A DNA stretch of 40,355 nucleotides from Chroococcidiopsidaceae cyanobacterium CP_BM_ER_R8_30 (GTDB lineage: Bacteria; Cyanobacteriota; Cyanobacteriia; Cyanobacteriales; Chroococcidiopsidaceae), in NCBI GenBank assembly GCA_019244235.1, contig JAFASY010000282.1:1-40355 (forward strand), read 5' to 3'. The notes under the pieces were generated by a model that saw nothing but the letters and a program-made list of their open reading frames with translations, did not search any database and was not told the DNA's origin. Positions within the stretch are counted from its first letter, which is position 1, and each line of letters starts with the position of its first letter. Positions 4,009 through 15,211 of this stretch are shown piece after piece. A program made the translations under genes and the position numbers.

Positions 4009-5265
4009 TTACGCGATATAGCGCGGGCTTCCTAATATCGCTATCAGGCTTTTCTGCTTCATCGGGTTGCCCAAGCCAATATCCCCTCCACAGACATTTT
4101 GTTGATTTCCCGATTGTCCCTCGGTACTAATTGATAAGATTCCTCGCTTTTTAACAACTTGCGCTGCTGCTACATCTCTATCGGTTTGATACTGACATTG
4201 AGGGCACAAATGCACTCTTACACCTAAATCTTTAGGAGCATCAGCATCACATCTGGGACAAGTTTGAGATGTACCATAGCAATTAACCTTGGCAAAGTAC
4301 ACATCTCTCTTCCAACAAACCCAACTTAAAATGCCAAGGAACTGGTCCCAGGCAGCATCCAGGATATGCTTAGATAGCATCCCTCTTGCTAGTCCTTTAA
4401 GATTCAAGTTCTCAGCAAATATCATCCCTGCTTGGTCACAAAGATGATGAGCTATCTTAAAATGCCAATCCCTACGAATGTTAGAGATTTGTTCATGCAG
4501 TAGTGCTATTCTTCGGTTGAGTTTGTACCAATTCTTACTACCTTTCTTCTTATGTTTTAACCTTCTTTGTAGCAATTTCAGCTCACGCAGCCGTTCCACA
4601 TAGAATCTAGGTCTTTGTACTAACTCACCCTCAGAAGTCGCGACAAAAGCGTTTAACCCCACATCAATACCTATTGGTTCCCCATGCGGCATTGTGCTAG
4701 GTACATCTACATCACACTGCAAACTCAGCATGACATGATAACCAGATGCTCGTTTGACAATCCTAGCCTGCTTCAAGTCAAAACCCTCTGGTATTGGTCG
4801 ATGCAGTATCATTTCAACCTTGCCAATCTTGGGCAGGTCGATGTAGTTATCAACCAAACTCGAACTATCCATTTGCGGAAACACAAACGAACGCATTCTG
4901 CCAGTCTTTTTGAACCTGGGAAAACCAAAACGCCTCTCCCACATTGAGACAAATGCTGTCTCCAGAATTTTTAGTGTCTGTTGCAGCACCTGAGAATGAG
5001 GAATCTTGAGGTCTGGATATTCCTTTTTAGCAGCAGTCAGAGACTTACACTGCTGAGCATAAGTTGGTCTAGGGGCATCACTCGGAATGATGTACTCATG
5101 ATGTAGACTACAAGCGTTGATTTCACATTTTCTAGAATTAAACCAATCCTTACGCTCCCTCAAAGCATAATTCCACACCCGTCTACAAACCTCTAACCAT
5201 TGGTCAAAGGCTTGAATCTGTTCGGGTGTAGGTTCCAGTTTAAATTCGTAGGTTAGTGTTATCAT
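4009..5265 (-). CDS. tnpB: TnpB, RNA-guided nuclease/transposon accessory protein
   Basis: A 418-residue IS605 OrfB/TnpB protein. The N-terminal helix-turn-helix-like region (about 1-120) leads to the wedge/RuvC fold. Catalytic acids are all present: D201 in GIDVGLN, E285 in FAENLNL and D364 in DRDVAAA. A Cys4 zinc finger (C336, C339, C354, C357) is inserted between the last two. TnpB proteins are known omegaRNA-guided DNA nucleases that favour retention of the element; activity here is inferred from intact residues. The ATG at 5265 matches the family N-terminus (YEFKLEPTPEQ); the longer open frame upstream is element left-end sequence. No tnpA is nearby. Confidence 0.9.
   Translation of the reverse strand: MITLTYEFKLEPTPEQIQAFDQWLEVCRRVWNYALRERKDWFNSRKCEINACSLHHEYIIPSDAPRPTYAQQCKSLTAAKKEYPDLKIPHSQVLQQTLKILETAFVSMWERRFGFPRFKKTGRMRSFVFPQMDSSSLVDNYIDLPKIGKVEMILHRPIPEGFDLKQARIVKRASGYHVMLSLQCDVDVPSTMPHGEPIGIDVGLNAFVATSEGELVQRPRFYVERLRELKLLQRRLKHKKKGSKNWYKLNRRIALLHEQISNIRRDWHFKIAHHLCDQAGMIFAENLNLKGLARGMLSKHILDAAWDQFLGILSWVCWKRDVYFAKVNCYGTSQTCPRCDADAPKDLGVRVHLCPQCQYQTDRDVAAAQVVKKRGILSISTEGQSGNQQNVCGGDIGLGNPMKQKSLIAILGSPRYIA
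4013..4041 (-). repeat. hairpin at the tnpB 3' end (right end / omegaRNA region)
   Basis: GCGATAT and ATATCGC form a 7-bp perfect stem around a 15-base loop, starting two bases inside the tnpB stop. In IS200/IS605 elements the right-end hairpin and the guide-RNA scaffold overlap the tnpB 3' end, so this is the expected position for both. Confidence 0.55.
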
Positions 5266-5309
5266 ATTGAGACTATACCACCTTTTAAAAAATATCAGCT
5301 CTTTTTCTA

Positions 5310-5347
5310 AAAAGATTCGCGCTCCGCTCAGTTTCTTGGTTGGTCGC
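5310..5347 (-). repeat. left-end sequence of first TnpB element, shared with second
   Basis: The block reads GATTCGC, four variable bases, CGCTCA, then TTT and TTGGTCGC. The same order and near-identical spacing occur at 9421-9457, upstream of the other minus-strand tnpB. Because the two TnpB proteins are only distantly related, the conserved block is best explained as a terminal recognition sequence. Confidence 0.55.
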
Positions 5348-6899
5348 AATTCATGAGCAGGTGCGATCTTGGCACTTTGCGTCGAGGAGCAACCTGCGTC
5401 TCGGTGCTGACCTTGAGGTACAGCGCGAGCCTTCTTGCTCCATTTAGGTAACGCAAAATGAAGATAGTTTTTCTTTCGCCTGCTCCGACATCGCTCTCGT
5501 TAATCGATTTCAGCGCTCCCGACAGGACGCGGAGGAGGATATGGGGCTGCATCAGGGACTGCGGCGGCGCGGTCATGCCCAGCACGTTTATATATGCACG
5601 AGTGACTGTAGTGTCCTCACAAGCCTGTTGCAGAACTAGATTCATGTAGCCGTGGAGGAACCCTAGGCCAATTCGAGGCCGTGCCCCGCTCAACGTTACC
5701 CCCTGTGATCGCCAGCGCAGATCCTCAGCGGTAGCAATCAGCCAAGGCGCGGCGATCGTCTTAGCCAGTTGCTTTTGGAAACGCCGCTCGAACCCCGGCT
5801 TAGGCGACCGTTGCTGCTGGCTCAGACAATCGGCAAGAACCAGCGCATCAAGAGCACTGGTGGTCATACCCTGACCGTAGATCGGGTTGAAGGCGCACAC
5901 AGAGTCTCCCGTGGCGATGAACCCAATCGGCCAACGGTCCAAGCGCTCGAAGTGGCGCAACCGATTCTGGGGAGTGCGGTATCCTCGGATAGGACTGATA
6001 GGTTCGGCAATTCGAATCGCCTCGAAAAGGCTGGGGTCAGCTAGATCGCGAGCCCACTGGAGGAAGCCCGATTCGTCAGTTGGCGGATAGTTGCCAGCAA
6101 AGCCACCCAATGTCACATGCCAGCGCCCGTGTTCGATCGGCAAGATGAGACCAGCACGTGGGTTATGGGGGGGACGGTTGTTAATGATAATTCCCTGCCA
6201 ATCAGCGGGGAAGTTGGACGGTTTGGCGTAAAACCGTGAGGCGTAGCCAATCCCGGAGTTAATGGTTTCTTCCGGGGGAGCGGAGTAGCCAAGCCTCACC
6301 AACCATTCGGGTGCTTTTGAGTGGCGACCGCTGGCATCTACAACAAGATCGGCTGCTACAGAGTGAGTTGAGTCTGCGTCTTCATCCCGGTGGTGCAGGC
6401 GGACACCTATTACTTGTGTCCGCTCTGGTGTGGAGAGCAGACCCGTCACCTCGCAATTCGTGAGGCAGCGCACCGAAGTCTGTGTCGTCAGTCGACGGCG
6501 AACATGCCACTCAAGCAAGAATCGGCTGAACGCCAGAAACTCCTCATCCTGCTTCAGCAACGGTAGTGCTCCTTTTGGCGTGACGAAGGCCACTGGGACG
6601 ACCCCACAGGCAGACAGTGCCCCCTCAGCGCGTAGCTCGTCCATGATGCCCGGAAATAGCCTGTCGATAATCTCTTGCCCCCTTGCCAGAAGCGCGTGTG
6701 CGTGATGTGACTGGGGTACACCCTTGCGATGGTCAGGCAAGTCGGGAAAGGTATCGCGGTCAATGATAGTCACCTGCTCAAAGTAGTCCGTTAGGACACG
6801 GGCTGCCAAGAGCCCGGCCATACTGCCACCAATCACTACGGCATGGCGACCAGTATTCGGCGTGCTGAAGTAGGAAGGGGAAAGAGTTTGTGTGTTCAT
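5328..6899 (-). CDS. FAD-dependent monooxygenase (UbiH/PHBH-like)
   Basis: A 523-residue class A flavoprotein hydroxylase-like enzyme. The dinucleotide-binding motif VVIGGSMAG is at residues 21-29, followed by the acidic strand end TIIDRD; a DG-type segment (LVVDASGRHS) and the GD motif (GDSVCAFNPIYGQGM) that contacts the FAD ribityl chain are present. Such enzymes use NAD(P)H and O2 to hydroxylate or epoxidise aromatic or isoprenoid substrates; the substrate is unknown. AGGAG lies six bases before the ATG. Base composition is visibly GC-richer than flanking genes, suggesting transfer. The last codons and the TGA lie inside the conserved left end of the TnpB element, so the native C-terminus may be lost. 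It is divergent from padR. Confidence 0.85.
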   Translation of the reverse strand: MNTQTLSPSYFSTPNTGRHAVVIGGSMAGLLAARVLTDYFEQVTIIDRDTFPDLPDHRKGVPQSHHAHALLARGQEIIDRLFPGIMDELRAEGALSACGVVPVAFVTPKGALPLLKQDEEFLAFSRFLLEWHVRRRLTTQTSVRCLTNCEVTGLLSTPERTQVIGVRLHHRDEDADSTHSVAADLVVDASGRHSKAPEWLVRLGYSAPPEETINSGIGYASRFYAKPSNFPADWQGIIINNRPPHNPRAGLILPIEHGRWHVTLGGFAGNYPPTDESGFLQWARDLADPSLFEAIRIAEPISPIRGYRTPQNRLRHFERLDRWPIGFIATGDSVCAFNPIYGQGMTTSALDALVLADCLSQQQRSPKPGFERRFQKQLAKTIAAPWLIATAEDLRWRSQGVTLSGARPRIGLGFLHGYMNLVLQQACEDTTVTRAYINVLGMTAPPQSLMQPHILLRVLSGALKSINESDVGAGERKTIFILRYLNGARRLALYLKVSTETQVAPRRKVPRSHLLMNCDQPRN

Positions 6900-8122: not shown

Positions 8123-9379
8123 CTACCCCGCCCTAAAGAGGACGGGGTTTCCAACTTCAATGGGAACCGCATCTAGTAAAACCGAAGTTTTACCAGGTTG
8201 ACTTACATTCCCTCCATTGGCTGTAGCGCTAGTTCCTAACGCCAGTATCCGCAAAGCCTCATTTCTAATGTTGATAGCTGCGTTAGTATCCCTATCATGA
8301 TGGGTTTGGCATCCATCACAAGTCCAAGCCCTGATATCTAATGGCAAGCTATCCATTTTGTTGAGACATACATTACACAGTTTAGAGGAAGGAAAGAACC
8401 TATCAATTTCTATATAGGTTTTCCCCTCCCACTCGGCTTTGTACTTGAGCATGGTGCAGAACTGTCCCCAACCACAATCACTAATGGCTTTAGCTAAATT
8501 GTGGTTCTTGACCATGTTCTTTACCGCTAAATTTTCTACAGCAACAACTTGGTTCTCGTTGACTATCTTGCGGGATAGCTTGTGCAGAAAATCTTCTCGA
8601 ACTCGTGAAATTTTAGAGTGTACTTTTGCTACTAACCTTTTAGCCTTAGCTCTAGTTGCGCTACTTTTTTGCTTACGGGCAAGACTCTGTTGCTTACGAG
8701 CGAGATTCTTAGCATGTCTTTCAGTATGCCTGGGATTGTCAAACTTGCTGCCATCACTGGTTATGCAAAAATGGGTTAGCCCCAAGTCAATACCAACCGC
8801 TTTACCCTCAGTAGAGCTTGGTGGGGTGGCTTTACCATCGTCAACTATGATGGAGGCATAGTACTTTCCGTCAGTATTCTGAGAAACAGTAGTGGACACA
8901 AATTTTCCAACTACTTTTCTATCTTGTTGACAGTAGATACTCCCTACTTTTCCCGGCAGCTTGAGATAGTCACCTTCTAACTTGACGTTAGCTGGATAAG
9001 TTATCGATTGCCTACTGTGCTTTGACTTGAACTTAGGATAGCCCGCTCTCTTGTCAAAGAAGTGCCGACCCTGCTCGAATCGAATTCGAGCAGGAAAGCG
9101 GCACTGCATTCCGCAGTTTTTGTAGGCAGTCGATAAGTTTAGGGCTACATACTGCAAACACTGAGAGTAAGCATCAGTTAGCCAAGGATATTCTTTCTTG
9201 AGAGATGGCAGCAATCCCTGAATAGCACCTCTTGCCAAGCCTTTTCCAGTAGCCTTATACGTCTCCTGGCACAAGTTCAAAGAGTAGTTCCAATACCAAC
9301 GGCAGCAACCAAAGCTCTTAGCTAAGGCTATCTGTTGCGCTGGAGTTGGGTACAATCTGAATTTGTAGGCTTTGTACAT
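8123..9379 (-). CDS. tnpB: TnpB, RNA-guided nuclease/transposon accessory protein
   Basis: A 418-residue TnpB. It begins with the typical YKAYKFRLYPTPAQ, has catalytic acids D198 (GIDLGLTHF), E282 (AVENLAVKN) and D364 (DRDTNAAINI), and a Cys4 zinc finger (C335, C338, C354, C357). It belongs to a different subgroup from the TnpB at 4009. Between YKN (residue 89) and FFDKRAGYPKFK, normally contiguous in relatives, it carries about 18 extra residues encoded by a palindromic DNA segment. The ATG at 9379 gives the family N-terminus; an in-frame ATG four codons earlier lies in the loop of a 12-bp inverted repeat. Confidence 0.9.
   Translation of the reverse strand: MYKAYKFRLYPTPAQQIALAKSFGCCRWYWNYSLNLCQETYKATGKGLARGAIQGLLPSLKKEYPWLTDAYSQCLQYVALNLSTAYKNCGMQCRFPARIRFEQGRHFFDKRAGYPKFKSKHSRQSITYPANVKLEGDYLKLPGKVGSIYCQQDRKVVGKFVSTTVSQNTDGKYYASIIVDDGKATPPSSTEGKAVGIDLGLTHFCITSDGSKFDNPRHTERHAKNLARKQQSLARKQKSSATRAKAKRLVAKVHSKISRVREDFLHKLSRKIVNENQVVAVENLAVKNMVKNHNLAKAISDCGWGQFCTMLKYKAEWEGKTYIEIDRFFPSSKLCNVCLNKMDSLPLDIRAWTCDGCQTHHDRDTNAAINIRNEALRILALGTSATANGGNVSQPGKTSVLLDAVPIEVGNPVLFRAG
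8125..8148 (-). repeat. right-end hairpin of second TnpB element
   Basis: ACCCCG pairs with CGGGGT (6 bp), then after a C/A mismatch CCT pairs with AGG around an AAAG loop. It covers the last codons of tnpB and would be part of both the right-end recognition hairpin and the omegaRNA scaffold. Confidence 0.65.
9062..9115. repeat. 54-base palindromic insertion inside tnpB, in frame
   Basis: Eleven-base arms CCTGCTCGAAT (9070-9080) and ATTCGAGCAGG (9084-9094) flank a 3-base loop, and outer arms AGTGCCG (9061-9067) and CGGCACT (9099-9105) add 7 bp. The segment is 18 codons long, has no stop in the tnpB frame, and interrupts a motif that is continuous in related TnpBs. It behaves like a small repeated palindromic element that can be tolerated inside genes. 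Confidence 0.6.
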
Positions 9380-9405
9380 TATCACTAACATTTGTTAGTG
9401 ATAAT
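9378..9405. promoter_or_regulatory. 12-bp inverted repeat over the tnpB start
   Basis: ATTATCACTAAC (9378-9389) and GTTAGTGATAAT (9394-9405) are perfect complements around a 4-base loop ATTT. On the minus strand the loop contains an ATG and the downstream arm runs into the chosen ATG at 9379. As RNA this would fold into a hairpin hiding the start; as DNA it could be an operator or a left-end recognition hairpin. Confidence 0.6.
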
Positions 9406-9452
9406 ATAATAACACAAACAAAAGGATTCGCTATCGCTCAATTTGTTTATTG

Positions 9453-9502
9453 GTCGCTATCCATCCCCAACCTGCTTCGCGAGGATGGGGATGGATAGCG
9501 AC
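9453..9502. repeat. 50-base inverted repeat with 17-bp arms
   Basis: Arms GTCGCTATCCATCCCCA (9453-9469) and its exact complement (9486-9502) enclose a 16-base loop that itself pairs partially. It abuts the left end of the second TnpB element and the edge of the IS6 remnant. There is no T-run, so it is not a simple terminator; a miniature palindromic element or terminal hairpin is more likely. Confidence 0.6.
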
Positions 9503-9731
9503 ATTTCGTTAAATGGTTGTTCAAACCAGGTAGAGGATTCAAATCATTCAATACAGCTCTGGCGTTCAATTAAAGGCTATGAAATTCTGCACATGATGAA
9601 AAAAGGACAAATTAAAAAAGTTGAGCCAGTGCGTTGCGGAGGTTCCCTCCGTTGTAGCAACTGGCGTTGAGAAAGGTGCCGTCAGAGAACGGATGAAATT
9701 CATAGCTGAGATCTTTGGAGTGGCTGCATAA
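9503..9731 (+). pseudogene. 3' remnant of an IS6-family transposase
   Basis: Translated in two frames the segment resembles the C-terminus of IS6/IS240-type DDE transposases: SIKGYEILHMMKKGQIKK in one frame, then after an interruption VRERMKFIAEIFGVAA followed by TAA at 9729-9731 in another. The upstream catalytic domain is absent. The interruption coincides with a palindromic repeat (9625-9666), which probably caused the frame change. The terminal inverted repeat follows at 9771. Confidence 0.6.
9625..9666. repeat. small dispersed palindromic repeat, copy A
   Basis: GCCAGT, GTTGC and GGAGG on the left pair with CCTCC, GCAAC and ACTGG on the right, making an imperfect hairpin. The same core (GGAGG, TT, CCCTCCG, then a GACTGGCG-like tail) occurs at 22035-22077 and, reversed, at 31690-31730. 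This copy is inserted in the IS6 transposase remnant. Confidence 0.55.
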
Positions 9732-9770
9732 GCAATTCCCCTTAAAGGGATTTTCTGTTCTCAATGTTTT

Positions 9771-9784
9771 TTTGCAACACAACC
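9771..9784 (+). mobile_element. right terminal inverted repeat of the IS6 remnant
   Basis: TTTGCAACACAACC differs by one base from the complement of the IS6-family end GGTTCTGTTGCAAA. It lies 40 bases after the remnant's stop codon, the expected place for the right end. Confidence 0.6.
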
Positions 9785-9940
9785 GTATATCCTGCCCTGT
9801 GTTAACTTCAAAGAATTGAGAGCATCCTTCATCAAGAAAAGTCGGCTTCTCAAGTTTTCCTTGCGTCGCAATTGGTTCAACTGCTCAGGGCTAGGAGCCG
9901 GATACTCCTTGGTCTCGATTTGGGAGCGTAATAAATTTAT
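9785..9940 (-). pseudogene. unidentified coding fragment next to the IS6 end
   Basis: On the minus strand 52 codons without stop read as a normal hydrophilic protein (ending LFLMKDALNSLKLTQGRIYG) and then run directly into the IS6 terminal repeat. The frame differs by one from the oxidase that stops at 9937. This looks like the residue of a gene cut by the IS insertion, or a frameshifted tail. Family not recognised, and chance reading cannot be excluded. Confidence 0.25.
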
Positions 9941-11142
9941 CGTAACCCTTTTGCTTGACTATAGCTTAAGGGCGATCTAATCAAATCATTTTTCCGAAAG
10001 CGGCTCAACCGGAAAAGTTTCAATTTATCAACTAACAGATTATTCTCCCCAAGCACAAACTGGCTCATTAAATCACCGATAATTGGGCTTAGCTTATATC
10101 CATGACCACTAAAACCAACAGCACAGTATAATCCTGGCACATGCTCTAACTTATCTATTATGGGTTGATAATCTGGCGTGACTCCCCAGATACCTGAATA
10201 TTTTTCCACAATTTTTCCCTTTTCTAGGATGGGGAATCGATGCAATAATTTTTGATGCAGCTCTTCCGTAATGTTGGGAAAAAGCTGTCCTTGAAACTCA
10301 TCAGCATCATGTAGCGAAAACCGAGGATGATATTTAGGGTCAGAATTACCAATTCGCGTGTAAGGCTCATCAGCATCAGAGCGAGAGTAACAGAGATTCA
10401 CCAAATCTGAGATTACAGGATGGTTGCTTAAAAATTCTTTTGGTCGCTCCACTACAAGAACGTGTTCAACCACTGGTGTGACCGGAAATTCCAACCCTAG
10501 GTGCTCGATAAACTTCTTTGCCCAAGGACCGACGCAATCAATGACGGTGCGCGTTGCAACTTCGCCCCCAGCCATAACCACACCTGCTACTTGACCCTGG
10601 GAATCTAACTTGATTTGTTGAACAGGACAATGCAAACGAATTTCTACGCCCAAATCTGCAGCTCGCTTAGCCAGAGCCCTCGTTGTCTGAGGGGGAGAGC
10701 CATAACCTGATTCTGGTTCATAAGCTGCTGCCGCTACATCAGTAAGATTTAGGCGGGGGACTACATCCTGAACTTGTTGCAAGTCTACCAGATCGACATT
10801 GATGTTAGTTGACCGATGCATCTGAGTCACACGCTTTAGCGTCTCAACATCGGATTTCCCTACCAGAACGTAATAGCCGCAAGGATTGAACCCGCTATTA
10901 TAGCCACCATATCTTTCAGAAAACTGATGAAATAGCTTTAAGGATTGGTGAGCTAACTCAGCAAGCAGCGGGTGAGTATAATGCGTACGAATAATGCCAA
11001 TTCCTTTACCAGAGGCACCATTGGCTAGTTCTTCTTTTTCAACCAAGAGGACTTTACCAGCTTTTCTTTCTGCCAAATGCAGGGCAATTGAGGCACCAAT
11101 ACACCCCCCACCCACTACAACAATATCTGCTGTCTCAACCAT
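9937..11142 (-). CDS. FAD-dependent amine/amino-acid oxidoreductase (DadA/SoxB-like)
   Basis: A 401-residue member of the DAO family (PF01266). The FAD-binding VVVGGGCIGASIA is at residues 8-20, followed by VEKEELANGASGKGIGIIRT, the segment typical of sarcosine oxidase beta subunits and glycine oxidases; the C-terminal YSGIWGVTPDYQPIID and GFSGHGYKLSPIIG are also family hallmarks. The family oxidises secondary or primary amines such as sarcosine, N-methyl amino acids, glycine or D-amino acids. Other sarcosine oxidase subunits are not nearby, so it probably acts as a single-subunit enzyme. It is divergent from a GntR regulator and faces the split glutamate-synthase genes, suggesting a shared pathway. 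Confidence 0.8.
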   Translation of the reverse strand: MVETADIVVVGGGCIGASIALHLAERKAGKVLLVEKEELANGASGKGIGIIRTHYTHPLLAELAHQSLKLFHQFSERYGGYNSGFNPCGYYVLVGKSDVETLKRVTQMHRSTNINVDLVDLQQVQDVVPRLNLTDVAAAAYEPESGYGSPPQTTRALAKRAADLGVEIRLHCPVQQIKLDSQGQVAGVVMAGGEVATRTVIDCVGPWAKKFIEHLGLEFPVTPVVEHVLVVERPKEFLSNHPVISDLVNLCYSRSDADEPYTRIGNSDPKYHPRFSLHDADEFQGQLFPNITEELHQKLLHRFPILEKGKIVEKYSGIWGVTPDYQPIIDKLEHVPGLYCAVGFSGHGYKLSPIIGDLMSQFVLGENNLLVDKLKLFRLSRFRKNDLIRSPLSYSQAKGLR

Positions 11143-11208
11143 GCGTTATACCATTTCTTAGATAGTGTGGAACTAACTTACTGCCTTCTCTTGTTAGCTC
11201 TTGTACCC

Positions 11209-11226
11209 TGCTTATTATAATAAGCA
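11209..11226. promoter_or_regulatory. 18-bp perfect palindrome, candidate GntR operator with bidirectional -10
   Basis: TGCTTATTATAATAAGCA is a perfect palindrome between the divergent oxidase and gntR genes. Its centre contains TATAAT on both strands, so it could serve as overlapping -10 elements for both directions, with the regulator competing for the site. A related palindrome lies at 12206-12221. Confidence 0.55.
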
Positions 11227-11369
11227 TACCGATCTTGATTTGTTAAGTCATGTAGATATATTGCGAGCAAACATGCCGCGAGGATAAGGTGTAGTGGGGT
11301 GATGGGGTTAGAACTGCTACTCCCTCACCAGATTTGCTAGCCTTTTACAGGAAGCTCTGAACTGCCCAC

Positions 11370-12110
11370 ATGACATCAAAAAACTTGACACACACTGAAC
11401 CCTTACATCTAGCTATTTCTGAACAACTGTGCGAACAAATACTGAATGGTAAATATGAGCCAGGAGATCAGCTACCCAGTGAAAATCAATTGATGTTACA
11501 GTTTAATGTTAGTCGGATTACTGTTAGACGAGCACTGGCTAACTTAACAAGTCAGGGGTTAGTGATATCTCAAAGAGGCAAGGGAGTTTTTGTTAAGGAG
11601 CGGAAGAAAGTTACACGCTCCTTATCTAATCCTCTCATTTTCTTTGATGAGGATATGGCACGCCAAGGAGTAAGTAGTAGTATTTGCAGCCTCTTCTACG
11701 AAAAAATAGCCCTCTCTTATAAAGTTGGGAAAAAATTAGATCTTCCAAGTGATACTCAATATATTTACTGTCAGAAGAAAATCATTCTGACCGATCAGAT
11801 TCCTGTTGCATTAGACATTACTTATATCCCACTAGAGTTAGGGAAAGCTTTTGCCGATCAATTACAATCTAGCCTAATCTATCCTACACTTGATAGTAAT
11901 GGAGTTTCGATTGAAAAAGTAGAAGCCACTTTAGAGTGTACGCACGCAACTTATGAAGTGAGCCAACAACTCGACATCCCTCTAGGAGCCCCATTATTGG
12001 TAAATCAGTATGTAGCTTATACAACAGGCGGTCGACCTGTCATTTGTGGTGAAACGCTCTCTAGAGCCGATCGGCTATGCTACTCAGTTGTTCTGACCAA
12101 AACCGTCTAA
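11370..12110 (+). CDS. GntR/HutC-type transcriptional regulator with UTRA domain
   Basis: A 246-residue regulator. The N-terminal winged helix (about 10-80) has the GntR signature: LCEQILNGKYEPGDQLPSEN, then VSRITVRRALANL as recognition helix and GLVISQRGKGVFV as wing. The C-terminal part (about 95-240) has the strand-rich UTRA ligand-binding fold seen in HutC, FarR and PhnF. Family members sense a small metabolite and usually repress the neighbouring catabolic genes. It sits between the oxidase (divergent) and the glutamate-synthase-like genes (downstream, 157 bases), and matching palindromes occur in both intergenic spaces. Confidence 0.9.
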   Translation: MTSKNLTHTEPLHLAISEQLCEQILNGKYEPGDQLPSENQLMLQFNVSRITVRRALANLTSQGLVISQRGKGVFVKERKKVTRSLSNPLIFFDEDMARQGVSSSICSLFYEKIALSYKVGKKLDLPSDTQYIYCQKKIILTDQIPVALDITYIPLELGKAFADQLQSSLIYPTLDSNGVSIEKVEATLECTHATYEVSQQLDIPLGAPLLVNQYVAYTTGGRPVICGETLSRADRLCYSVVLTKTV

Positions 12111-12205
12111 CTACAGCATATAAGTGGTATGTGAAACAGGCATTAACTGAAAATCGATGAGGAATAGTATCTGAGAATACAGCTTTTTGAAATTATTGAG
12201 AAGTA

Positions 12206-12221
12206 GCTTGTTATTACAAGC
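12206..12221. promoter_or_regulatory. palindrome upstream of the amidotransferase gene, candidate GntR operator
   Basis: GCTTGTTATTACAAGC has 6-bp arms around TATT and matches GCTTATTATAATAAGC at 11210-11225 in 13 of 16 positions. It lies 47 bases before the amidotransferase start. Confidence 0.5.
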
Positions 12222-12267
12222 ATTATGGGGCTAGTAGTATTAAATTTATCCATGGGAGGAGCAAACT

Positions 12268-13206
12268 TTGTGTGGCATTGCTGGAGTCATATATCATAGC
12301 TTAGAGTACTATCGGCACCTTGGCTCAGATTTACTAAGCTTGATTGAGCCATTAGAGAGCAGAGGACCAGACTCCTGCGGAGTGGGACTTTACGGCAAAG
12401 CCGAACAGCCATCGCTCTTCAAGGTGCTGTTACTAGCTGAGGGCAACATACCATGGCAGGAAGTCAAGCAATCTTTAAGCCAACTGACAGAGGTTGTAAA
12501 GTTCGAAGACATTGGAACTGGCTGTCGGGCAGTGCTACGTTCGGAAGATGATAATTGTCTCAACTTCCTAGAACTGAGGACAGAGTTAGCTAGGAGTTTT
12601 CCGGGGCTACATCTTTTGAGCATGGGGCAGCAACTGGAGATTTACAAGGAGATCGGCGCTGCCAATCATCTATTTGGGAAATACAACCTCAAAGGGTTTG
12701 CCGGGACTCATGGTATTGCCCATACCCGTATGGCGACAGAGTCAGTTGTAGATACCTGTCACTCTCATCCCTTCACATCGGCACAAGATCTATGTATTGT
12801 CCACAACGGACAAATTTCTAACTACTATAAGCTGCGTTTCGCCTTAGAGCGGCAAGGAGTGATATTTGAGACTAATAATGATTCAGAAGCGATCGCCCAC
12901 TACCTCCGCTACCAACTAGTACAGGGCAAATCCCTAGAAGCTGCCCTCAACAGTCTCCTCAACGACTTTGATGGCACATATACCTTTCTAGTTGCCACAT
13001 CAGACAAAGTCGGACTCGTACGCGACAAATTTGCCGCCAAGCCAGCAGTCATTTACGAATCAGCCGAGATAGTTGCCATAGCTTCAGAATACCGTTGCCT
13101 ACTCAACCTATCTGAATTTGATTCTCAAGCAACAATTCGAGAACCCGATGCTGGGGAAGTGAATATTTGGAGAGCAAAGACTGCTACATGCAACAGCAAC
13201 TATTAG
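12268..13206 (+). CDS. class II glutamine amidotransferase subunit (GlxB/MgsA-like)
   Basis: A 312-residue N-terminal-nucleophile amidotransferase that releases ammonia from glutamine. Cys2 is the nucleophile (MCGIAG); SRGPDSCGVGLYG (residues 31-43), GIAHTRMATES, HNGQISNYYKLR and ETNNDSEAIAHYL are the class II glutamine-site motifs. The TTG start is set by the need for Cys at position 2 and by GGGAGGA seven bases upstream. In GlxB, MgsA and the split glutamate synthases this subunit supplies ammonia to a separate FMN synthase subunit, and the next two genes are exactly those partners. It overlaps the next gene by 19 bases. Confidence 0.9.
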   Translation: MCGIAGVIYHSLEYYRHLGSDLLSLIEPLESRGPDSCGVGLYGKAEQPSLFKVLLLAEGNIPWQEVKQSLSQLTEVVKFEDIGTGCRAVLRSEDDNCLNFLELRTELARSFPGLHLLSMGQQLEIYKEIGAANHLFGKYNLKGFAGTHGIAHTRMATESVVDTCHSHPFTSAQDLCIVHNGQISNYYKLRFALERQGVIFETNNDSEAIAHYLRYQLVQGKSLEAALNSLLNDFDGTYTFLVATSDKVGLVRDKFAAKPAVIYESAEIVAIASEYRCLLNLSEFDSQATIREPDAGEVNIWRAKTATCNSNY

Positions 13207-13904
13207 AAAAAATAGTATTAGACTGTACCAGCCTCAGTACACGAGAAATCAACCAACGGCTCAAAGCTCTAGCATCTGAAGGCGTCTCCTCTCACGTTGA
13301 ATTGCTCAACCCAAATGGGCGGCACAACCTAGCTGTCGGGATTGAGTACCCCATTAACATCAGATTCACTGGACCTGTCGGCTACTACTGCGGTGGTTTA
13401 AGCGATGGTCCCAATATTACAGTGTCTGGTTCTTGCGGCTGGTCAGTCGGTGAAAATCTGATGAGCGGTGAAATCGTAGTTCATGGCAATGCTTCTGCCA
13501 ATGCTGCCGCTTCTGCCCATGGTGGTAAAGTTTGCATTCTCGGCAACGCTGGACCACGCGCAGGAATTTCGCTCAAGGGAGGCGCTCTAATTGTGACTGG
13601 CAATATAGGCTATGGCAGCGCCTTCATGATGCAGCAGGGGTGCCTGATTGTTTGCGGAGATGCTGGTGCAAATTTGGCAGACTCCATTTATGACGGAGAG
13701 ATCTATGTCGGGGGAAATGTAAGTTCTCTAGGCGCAGATGCTAAGTTTGAACCTTTATCTAGCGCAGACTGGCAGCGCCTCGAACAAGAGTTGTCACCGC
13801 TCTCGCTTGCCCCACAAACGTACAACTTTAAAAAAATAGTTTGTGCTGAACAACTGTATAACTTTAAGGCTAAGGATTGGTCGAAATGGAAAGACGCATA
13901 CTAG
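13188..13904 (+). CDS. GXGXG-domain subunit of glutamate-synthase-like enzyme (GlxC/MgsB-like)
   Basis: A 238-residue protein made of the right-handed beta-helix found at the C-terminus of GltB. Glycine-rich turns recur every 18-20 residues (for example VSGSCGWSVGENLMSGEIVVHGN split over residues 79-101, then GGKVCILGNAG, GGALIVTGNIG, GCLIVCGDAG and GEIYVGGNV). The domain is structural in glutamate synthase and holds the other domains together. ATG 13188 is chosen; an in-frame TTG at 13167 is possible but adds seven residues without a family match. It overlaps both neighbours by 19 bases, so translation is probably coupled. Confidence 0.85.
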   Translation: MQQQLLEKIVLDCTSLSTREINQRLKALASEGVSSHVELLNPNGRHNLAVGIEYPINIRFTGPVGYYCGGLSDGPNITVSGSCGWSVGENLMSGEIVVHGNASANAAASAHGGKVCILGNAGPRAGISLKGGALIVTGNIGYGSAFMMQQGCLIVCGDAGANLADSIYDGEIYVGGNVSSLGADAKFEPLSSADWQRLEQELSPLSLAPQTYNFKKIVCAEQLYNFKAKDWSKWKDAY

Positions 13905-15211
13905 AAACCAGCCATACTTATTCTCCTCATGCCATCAAAGCTATTCAAGACAGGGCAGAACTAGGTCGCTACATGATTCGGGGATATGGCGCTTTTCGTG
14001 ATGTTCCGCGATTTGACGATCTTACCTTCCTCTCTGCTTCCATGACGCGGTTGCCACTAGAAGGCTATCGGGAAAAATGCAATACCAAGACAGTTTTAGG
14101 TACCCGCTATGCAAAGCGCCCAATGGAGCTAGATGCACCAATCACAATTGCGGGGATGAGCTTTGGAGCACTCTCAAGCAATGCGAAGGTGGCTTTAGGA
14201 CGGGCAGCAACCATGCTAGGCATATCAACAACAACGGGTGATGGGGGAATGCTGCCAGCGGAAAGAGAAGCGTCAGCTAAATTGGTTTACCAATGTCTGC
14301 CTTCACGCTACGGTTTTAACCCTAAAGATCTGAAAACAGCCGATGCCATTGAAATTGTCGTTGGACAAGGGGCAAAACCTGGGGGTGGCGGGCTGCTGCT
14401 GGGACAGAAAGTGAGCAAAGTGGTGGCTGGGATGCGGACGTTGCCAGAGGGGATCGATCAGCGATCGCCCTGTCGTCATCCTGACTGGATTGGTCCGGAC
14501 GATCTGAGGATCAAAATCGAAGAGTTGCGAGAAGCTACAGATTGGGAAATTCCGATTTACGTCAAGATGGGCGCAACCCGTGTTAAGGATGACGTGAAGC
14601 TGGCGGTAAAAGCTGGTGCAGATGTCATCGTCCTTGACGGTATGGAAGGAGGGACAGCGGCAACGCAGAGTATTTTTCAAGAACACACTGGCATCCCCAC
14701 ATTACCTGCTCTCGTGCAAGCAGTAGAAGCGCTTCAAGAGATTGGGGTTTATGGTCAGGTACAGCTAGTGATTTCTGGCGGAATTCGTTCTGGTCCTGAT
14801 GTGGCGAAAGCGATCGCGCTGGGGGCTGATGCGGTCAGTCTAGGTACAGCGCCTTTGATTGCGATGGGATGCAATAAACCTATCTACATTGAAGACTACC
14901 ATAAGTTAGGTACAGAACCCTACCACTGCCATCATTGCCATACAGGCATGTGTCCAGTAGGGATCACCACCCAAGATGAGGAGTTGATGCAAAGGTTGCC
15001 AATAGAATCAGCTACAACACATGTAGCGAATTATCTGCAATCCCTAGTGATGGAAGTGCAGAGCCTAGCTAGAGCTTGTGGTAAGTCTGACGTACATAAT
15101 TTAGAGCGAGAAGATTTAGTGGCATTGACGCTCTCAGCTTCAGCAATGGCGAAGTTGCCGTTAGCAGGAACAGACTTCGTGATGGGGCAAAAGTTAAATC
15201 GGTACCCTTGA
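13886..15211 (+). CDS. FMN-binding glutamate-synthase-domain protein (GlxD/MgsC-like)
   Basis: A 441-residue alpha/beta-barrel of the glutamate synthase central FMN domain. Visible are APITIAGMSFGALS (substrate/FMN region), GDGGMLPAER, GAKPGGGGLL, KMGATRVKDDVKLAVKAGAD, DGMEGGTAA and SGGIRSGPDVAKAIALGADAV, the phosphate-binding end of the barrel. A Cys cluster, CHHCHTGMCPVG, corresponds to the iron-sulfur site. Stand-alone proteins of this size work with separate amidotransferase and GXGXG subunits, as in N-methylglutamate synthase. A GltD-like NADPH subunit is not present. AAGGA lies nine bases before the ATG. The true amine acceptor (ammonia, methylamine or other) is unknown. Confidence 0.88.
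   Translation: MERRILETSHTYSPHAIKAIQDRAELGRYMIRGYGAFRDVPRFDDLTFLSASMTRLPLEGYREKCNTKTVLGTRYAKRPMELDAPITIAGMSFGALSSNAKVALGRAATMLGISTTTGDGGMLPAEREASAKLVYQCLPSRYGFNPKDLKTADAIEIVVGQGAKPGGGGLLLGQKVSKVVAGMRTLPEGIDQRSPCRHPDWIGPDDLRIKIEELREATDWEIPIYVKMGATRVKDDVKLAVKAGADVIVLDGMEGGTAATQSIFQEHTGIPTLPALVQAVEALQEIGVYGQVQLVISGGIRSGPDVAKAIALGADAVSLGTAPLIAMGCNKPIYIEDYHKLGTEPYHCHHCHTGMCPVGITTQDEELMQRLPIESATTHVANYLQSLVMEVQSLARACGKSDVHNLEREDLVALTLSASAMAKLPLAGTDFVMGQKLNRYP

Follow-up and report, generated by a model that had tools for sequence, protein, structure and literature searches.

Inspection of a 40,355-nucleotide contig from the Chroococcidiopsidaceae cyanobacterium CP_BM_ER_R8_30 (JAFASY010000282.1; this whole stretch is called the window below) reveals a compact block of five genes at 9937-15211, where a gene for a DAO-family flavoprotein diverges from a gene for a GntR/UTRA regulator and the latter is followed by three genes for subunits of glutamate-synthase type. 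A first-pass annotation had described these five open reading frames (ORFs), all of which are intact, and had suggested that oxidase and synthase could form a cycle for using or making an N-substituted amino acid, with a GntR regulator of its own. A joint pathway that acts on an N-methyl amino acid and is regulated by GntR is the most likely interpretation. Our analysis indicates, with a probability of roughly 0.8, that the block belongs to the N-methylglutamate (NMG) pathway of methylamine use in a cyanobacterium, with gmaS encoded elsewhere in the genome and the DAO-family flavoprotein (hereafter DAO) replacing MgdABCD.

The DAO gene (9937-11142, minus strand) encodes 401 residues and is the proposed single-gene NMG oxidase/dehydrogenase, an assignment based on its Pfam match (PF01266, 225 bits), its structural model, its tree position and its either/or distribution with SoxA. 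The HutC-type GntR/UTRA regulator (246 residues, 11370-12110, plus strand) matches GntR with 76 bits and UTRA with 67 bits. On the same strand, mgsA (glxB-type, 12268-13206, TTG start) encodes a class II glutamine amidotransferase subunit (GATase_6, 68 bits) whose N-terminus, MCGIAG, provides Cys2 and whose further motifs we take to be those of class II amidotransferases. It is followed by mgsB (glxC-type, 13167-13904), the GXGXG subunit (56 bits), and mgsC (glxD-type, 13877-15211), the FMN and Fe-S synthase subunit (Glu_synthase, PF01645, 331 bits), which contains three clustered cysteines, C351-x2-C354-x4-C359. Read from the listed TTG starts, mgsA and mgsB overlap by 40 bases and mgsB and mgsC by 28, while the probable starts of mgsB and mgsC are ATG codons within these ORFs, at 13188 and 13886, that still leave each gene overlapping its predecessor. 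Among the NCBIfam matches listed, neither DAO (138 bits against its best match, N-methyl-L-tryptophan oxidase, where 257 are required) nor the mgsABC trio reaches a cut-off. Two proposed operators complete the block, namely the palindrome CTTATTATAATAAG at 11211-11224 between DAO and gntR, and CTTGTTATTACAAG at 12207-12220 before mgsA. The same order, with DAO divergent from GntR-mgsA-mgsB-mgsC, recurs in identical orientation in two relatives (L007 and L008), so the arrangement is not due to chance, and the first-pass concern that no relative might keep the five genes together does not hold.

Sequence comparisons identify the trio as N-methylglutamate synthase MgsABC, with its activity being predicted. 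The three proteins are stand-alone GltB-domain subunits in the order amidotransferase-GXGXG-FMN, as in MgsABC. A search of genome contigs with the FMN protein was followed through the best 80 of 136 relatives (L007-L086), of which 12 are cyanobacterial loci with 82-92% identity to the window protein and 68 are loci from many phyla with 60-67% identity. The flanks of these 68 loci contain gmaS-like genes in 58, SoxA in 49, SoxB in 52, and gmaS together with SoxA or SoxB in 44; at least one of the three is present in 66, and only L019 and L081 have none in the fetched flanks. Annotated plasmid operons show the usual setting to include sox, glnT, purU and folD, plus dmm genes in Rhizobium etli. 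In a tree built by a quick method from 69 rows (68 of the 125 stretches found plus the window), the window protein falls within a 13-row cyanobacterial clade (quick-method support 97), distant from GltB and sister to 20 mostly proteobacterial rows (support for the union 99). The FMN subunit is thus placed beside the MgsC of gmaS/sox operons and not inside ordinary glutamate synthase; the first-pass annotation had named MgsABC as a relative. An ordinary GltB-like glutamate synthase (GltBD) is ruled out by this position outside GltB. Since glxBCD of SAR11 has been proposed to be mgsABC (PMC3160333), GlxBCD and MgsABC appear to denote the same trio. Five Pelagibacteraceae loci (L042, L045, L047, L048 and L049) also encode a second MgsC-like protein, 52-55% identical, which in L042 and L047-L049 has its own amidotransferase and GXGXG genes.

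The first-pass annotation had concluded that this is not the described methylamine pathway, a claim that rested on the absence of gmaS from the window only and that fails, given a gmaS gene in the same genome (C326:5324-6628) and its position adjacent to the trio or to DAO in relatives. The encoded protein is 78% identical to that of L014 and, with a score of 592 bits, exceeds the TIGR03105 cut-off of 470. Its best match in the Protein Data Bank (PDB) is RhGmaS (7cql, 519 bits), followed by a glutamate-methylamine ligase (355.5 bits), as compared with at most 247 bits for glutamine synthetases (GS). All 20 inspected residues for ATP, Mg or methylamine binding, or for the difference between GmaS and GS, are retained, including A48 (Asp50' to Ala) and W300 (Glu-flap Glu to Trp), which separate GmaS from GS (residue roles from PMC7948447). 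A gmaS homologue with 68-100% identity is present in 11 of 11 genomes of L008-L018 (the genome of L007 stands outside all whole-genome counts). It lies between DAO and mgsA in L014, directly after mgsC in L018, next to DAO in L015, and divergently next to DAO in L203 and L204. An MgsC-type protein of at least 65% identity occurs in only 4 of 386 sampled cyanobacterial genomes (G000, G005, G060 and G308, where G005 and G386 are treated as one genome due to identical match coordinates); three of the four also encode a gmaS of at least 75% identity, and in G308 the trio has next to it a version of 44% identity. The gmaS contig of CP_BM_ER_R8_30 also carries a second GS-like gene, for which glutamine synthetases are the best matches in the PDB, and adjoining it a gene for a DUF6885 protein (L094:788-1588).

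The missing sarcosine oxidase subunits remarked on in the first-pass annotation are a real gap, most likely one that DAO fills. The genome, which is 97% complete, encodes no full-length SoxA/MgdC; the only match is 28% identical and covers residues 627-958 of 966. Among 14 trio-bearing cyanobacterial genomes (CP_BM_ER_R8_30, the 11 of L008-L018, G060 and G308), DAO with 63-100% identity is present in 10 and full-length SoxA/MgdC with 35-53% identity in the other four, which are G060, G308 and the genomes of L009 and L012; none of the 14 has both or neither. SoxA matches in the 10 DAO genomes cover the C-terminal part only, from residue 561 on, and the genome of L012 has SoxA plus a SoxG-like gene after gmaS. 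A third cyanobacterial case of sox with mgs, on a Kovacikia plasmid, lies outside this count. Such an either/or split would arise by chance with a probability of 1/1001 if relatedness is ignored, and all independent DAO/SoxA pairs point in the expected direction. Across the 386 sampled genomes DAO of at least 60% identity occurs in two (G000 and G005), both with trio and gmaS, and DAO adjoins gmaS in four genomes (L014, L015, L203 and L204) and gntR-mgs in three (the window, L007 and L008).

Phylogenetic analysis separates this DAO from the corresponding dehydrogenase subunit. In a careful tree of 45 rows (5 of 50 were dropped, four long ones including PuuB and one duplicate), 11 cyanobacterial DAOs form one clade (100/100) that joins the DAOs of a Candidatus Mycobacterium methanotrophicum plasmid (NZ_CP097321, L230) and an Alicyclobacillaceae metagenome-assembled genome (MAG; L039) with support of 97/86. 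SoxB/MgdA forms a separate clade (100/100) with the window DAO outside it. The quick tree of all 50 rows also recovers the cyanobacterial clade (98), but the branch that unites it with L230, L039 and a single very long row has support of only 89. Because DAO alternates with SoxA and groups with DAOs of gmaS-mgsABC-DAO clusters, outside MgdA/SoxB, it most likely takes the place of the four-subunit NMG dehydrogenase MgdABCD (SoxBDAG-like) as the product of a single, non-orthologous gene.

The NMG pathway of methylotrophs (gmaS, mgsABC, mgdABCD) shares with the present system GmaS (here elsewhere in the genome), a complete MgsABC, the A-B-C order and linkage in relatives. It differs in that the cyanobacterial host has no full-length SoxA/MgdC, has instead a single 401-residue DAO of another clade, and has a proposed GntR/UTRA regulation at CTTRTYATRAYAAG. 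In the two clusters outside the phylum, L230 and L039, gmaS, mgsABC and a DAO from the clade of the window protein follow one another. In L230 the annotation reads glnT, glutamine amidotransferase, glxC, FMN-binding glutamate synthase and FAD-binding oxidoreductase, all in one direction; in L039 gmaS (46%, 4398-5690), the trio and DAO (9340-10524) also share one direction. In contrast to the window, gmaS and DAO are therefore co-directional with the trio, no GntR of the window kind was seen there, and the two DAOs are only 33% and 38% identical to that of the window. No SoxA match was found in the fetched stretches of either locus. Other mycobacteria are described with gma, mgsABC and separate mgdABCD clusters (PMC5023230). 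The cyanobacterial sox-mgs operons (G308, with gmaS in the operon; G060; the Kovacikia minuta plasmid) represent the same pathway in the same phylum, but their MgsC lies inside the mostly proteobacterial clade and SoxB, SoxA and SoxG are present, while G308 and G060 are without the DAO and GntR of the window.

The structural model of DAO is in keeping with an enzyme of this kind. An AlphaFold model from a 20-row alignment (pLDDT 93) matches best the beta subunit of L-proline dehydrogenase (1y56_B, Z 49.0, 1.8 Å over 369 residues), followed by the beta subunit of heterotetrameric sarcosine oxidase (Z about 48), dimethylglycine dehydrogenase (DMGDH, 46) and monomeric sarcosine oxidase (MSOX, 43 to 44), all of them enzymes of secondary or tertiary amino acids. 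Monomeric sarcosine oxidase and SolA, which act on N-methyl amino acids, share with DAO both the fold and the single subunit, and R52 and K350 are retained relative to E. coli SolA. The 12 DAOs of mgs pathways that were compared have in common R254, N266, S267 and a C-terminal Arg, among others. Two other settings with related proteins were observed. A DAO about 31% identical to that of the window lies close to genes for the beta and alpha subunits of electron transfer flavoprotein (ETF) on the nif plasmid of Paraburkholderia phymatum (L236:4001-7537), hinting at ETF as acceptor for this kind of DAO. A GntR 45-48% identical to the window regulator lies beside a DAO-like protein of 24-25% identity in L276 (G387:C343:4353-6420) and L277 (G388:C143:5285-7346), perhaps a paralogous sister system for another N-methyl compound.

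We next consider regulation. A GntR match with an E value of 1e-20 or better occurs in 10 of the 13 other trio-bearing cyanobacterial genomes, in one case split over two frames, which brings the total to 11 of 14; the search of these 14 did not find it in G060, G308 or the genome of L014. Counts of 8-mers in 29 promoter regions revealed CTTGTTAT/ATAACAAG in 15, and the palindrome derived from them, CTTRTYATRAYAAG, lies in the window before DAO/gntR and before mgsA. In relatives it precedes gmaS, soxA, the genes for dimethylamine monooxygenase and a copper amine oxidase, and an unlinked gntR. At a match of at least 13/14 it is present in 18 of 36 module promoters, as compared with 1.8% of 7200 random windows from 16 loci, which include the true sites. 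The 18 misses include the promoters of gmaS in CP_BM_ER_R8_30 (10) and in Gloeocapsopsis (12), and those of L014 (9, 10) and L017 (8, 7). The window contains exactly two sites of at least 12/14, at 11211 (14/14) and 12207 (13/14), and the former is the sole exact match in the genome. With up to one mismatch the genome has 7 matches, a background number given 13 for a reversed control, and two of the 7, one of them exact, are at module promoters. The site at 12207, with its one mismatch, thus draws its backing from position and not from genome-wide rarity.

Since the motif was derived from the promoter set itself, a genome scan is the fairer test. For the 7 of 14 trio genomes covered, 11 exact sites are listed in five genomes, and nine of them are at gntR, mgs, DAO, soxA, dmm or amine-oxidase genes. 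Besides the window site, these are two in Gloeocapsopsis (C125, at mgsA and at DAO/gntR); two in the genome of L009, upstream of the SoxA match (by 46 bp) and of a copper amine oxidase gene (by 57 bp; PF01179, L255:4488-6470); three in the genome of L018, upstream of mgsA, of dmmA (by about 210 bp, at 11600) and of an unlinked gntR (by 68 bp; L257) whose product is 51% identical to the window GntR; and one in the genome of L013, 565 bp upstream of DAO. Of the remaining two, one is upstream of the GS-like gene that shares a contig with gmaS in Gloeocapsopsis, and the other separates PhyH from SBP_bac_3 in the genome of L009. G308 and the genome of L014, both without this GntR, have no exact site genome-wide, and the scored promoters of G060, G308 and L014 reach at most 10/14. 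We propose from this distribution that GntR acts on the CTTRTYATRAYAAG sites before DAO/gntR and mgsA; the module is real and conserved, and apparently co-regulated. A divergent pair of genes for a PhyH dioxygenase and a family-3 solute-binding protein, with an operator-like site between them, was seen twice (exact in L256:4384-6237, one mismatch in L202:4379-6160).

Taken as the NMG pathway, the genes would act in three steps. GmaS would convert methylamine, glutamate and ATP to gamma-glutamylmethylamide, MgsABC would move the methylamine onto 2-oxoglutarate to give NMG, and DAO would oxidise the N-methyl group of NMG, yielding glutamate and formaldehyde. The net result would be a transfer of methylamine nitrogen to glutamate, with GntR controlling DAO/gntR and mgsA via CTTRTYATRAYAAG sites. 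The gene identities, linkage, trees, motif distribution and alternation with SoxA come directly from sequence, whereas every reaction, the electron acceptor, the release of free formaldehyde, and the ligand and sign of GntR control are inferred. In proteobacteria, GmaS forms gamma-glutamylmethylamide, NMG synthase (NMGS) forms NMG by a proposed transfer to 2-oxoglutarate with a redox cofactor that is unknown there, and NMG dehydrogenase (NMGDH) returns glutamate and formaldehyde (PMC6237917, PMC5023228). According to work cited in PMC6237917, Methylobacterium extorquens DM4 can use methylamine as a source of nitrogen without GMAS. The methyl group may be bound to tetrahydrofolate (THF) in Rhodobacteraceae (PMC7574528); free formaldehyde is the likely product of the cyanobacterial DAO step, since without SoxA no folate-binding partner for DAO is in sight.

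Neighbouring genes in relatives extend this picture. An Amt transporter gene, a plausible route for methylammonium, lies near the trio in L008, beside DAO in L178 and beside gmaS in L209. In Pleurocapsales cyanobacterium LEGE 10410 (L018:11822-14403), gmaS is followed by DmmA, a reductase and HODM alpha (PF11927), a set resembling dimethylamine monooxygenase, and a HODM alpha-like gene (279 bits) is present on the Gloeocapsopsis gmaS contig. We consider it fairly probable that a cyanobacterial group uses methylated amines as nitrogen source via an NMG pathway that ends in a new single-subunit NMG-oxidising flavoprotein, common to an actinobacterium and a Bacillota member, and that the GntR regulon in some species also includes dimethylamine monooxygenase, the PhyH dioxygenase, the solute-binding protein and copper amine oxidase.

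Several observations weigh against assigning the block to the NMG pathway. The gmaS gene of CP_BM_ER_R8_30 is on a separate 7.5 kb contig with a promoter site of 10/14, within background, so we do not claim it as a proven member of the regulon. It is followed by genes for a PuuD-like hydrolase, an APC permease and the second GS-like protein, and so might have a role with further amines. No match to PF11927 (HODM), a family of methylated-amine oxygenases, was found in this genome. A gmaS-like protein is no pathway marker when alone, as 17 of 386 genomes have one of only 51-54% identity and no MgsC-type match of at least 65%. When corrected for phylogeny, the DAO/SoxA alternation comprises one independent pair on supported branches and three on all branches, too few for significance, and the DAO gene in the genome of L017 has an in-frame TGA. 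A divergent gene for a fatty-acid desaturase lies only 21 bp from the exact site in L257, which could thus belong to this gene or to gntR. Finally, DAO differs from SolA in having T and G at the counterparts of K259 and C308, which are the O2-activating Lys and the covalent-FAD Cys, with an alignment that is gapped near the Lys and SoxB rows that also have neither. Due to this difference, the electron acceptor of DAO could be O2, ETF or quinone, making "oxidase" a predicted label.

Three alternatives were weighed. DAO could act on a side substrate (sarcosine, some other N-methylated amino acid or a compound resembling proline), leaving an unlinked enzyme of the same NMG pathway to demethylate NMG. 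The fold is indeed common to proline dehydrogenase, sarcosine oxidase and DMGDH, and identity to the best fold matches is only 23-26%, but we judge this unlikely in view of the linkage of DAO to gmaS or mgs, the operator that it has in common with them, its presence exactly where SoxA is missing, and the DAOs of the same kind that end the gmaS-mgs clusters of the mycobacterium and the Alicyclobacillaceae MAG. The hydrolase and its neighbours on the gmaS contig, together with a PuuD-like gene after gmaS in Gloeocapsopsis too, would instead fit gamma-glutamylation of another amine (ethylamine, ethanolamine or polyamines) in a Puu-like route, where DAO would take the part of PuuB and the product would be released by the PuuD-like hydrolase. 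Such a route is quite improbable given the 20 retained GmaS residues, a branch of the quick tree (97) that separates the DAO/SolA group from PuuB, itself a long branch, and the dmm or HODM genes that share a contig or operator in two relatives. Least probable is that the genes serve to make an N-methyl or N-alkyl amino acid, for example as product or osmolyte, rather than to use amines. In Pseudomonas putida given methylamine, mgsABC with gmaS, and less so mgsABC alone, does yield NMG (PMC6237917), yet breakdown is favoured by the presence of DAO or SoxA as a partner and by the amine-oxidising genes that share this operator.

With methylamine use via the NMG pathway as the preferred reading, the pathway itself is known, and its cyanobacterial form, one-gene last step and GntR regulon appear to be new. 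Among the open-access papers listed by literature searches, no title or opening of an abstract points to an NMG pathway in cyanobacteria or to a single-subunit NMG oxidase, although this scope makes the negative a weak one. In cyanobacteria, methylammonium has a long history of use as a supposedly non-metabolised ammonium analogue. The present findings suggest that certain photosynthetic bacteria are able to feed on methylamine. If so, some cyanobacteria would obtain methylamine nitrogen and phototrophs would join the users of dissolved methylated amines. The last-step enzyme would be simpler, one gene for four and likely without folate, allowing easier transfer of the pathway and use in making or removing NMG. 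The operator provides a handle for locating other amine-use genes in cyanobacteria.

Close to the block, about 545 bp from DAO, lies what the first-pass annotation had termed insertion sequence (IS) debris. It consists of an IS200/IS605-type TnpB ORF of 422 residues (8123-9391, minus strand) from the RNA-guided endonuclease family. A TnpB ORF 39% identical to it is found directly before mgsA in L018 (3655-4809).

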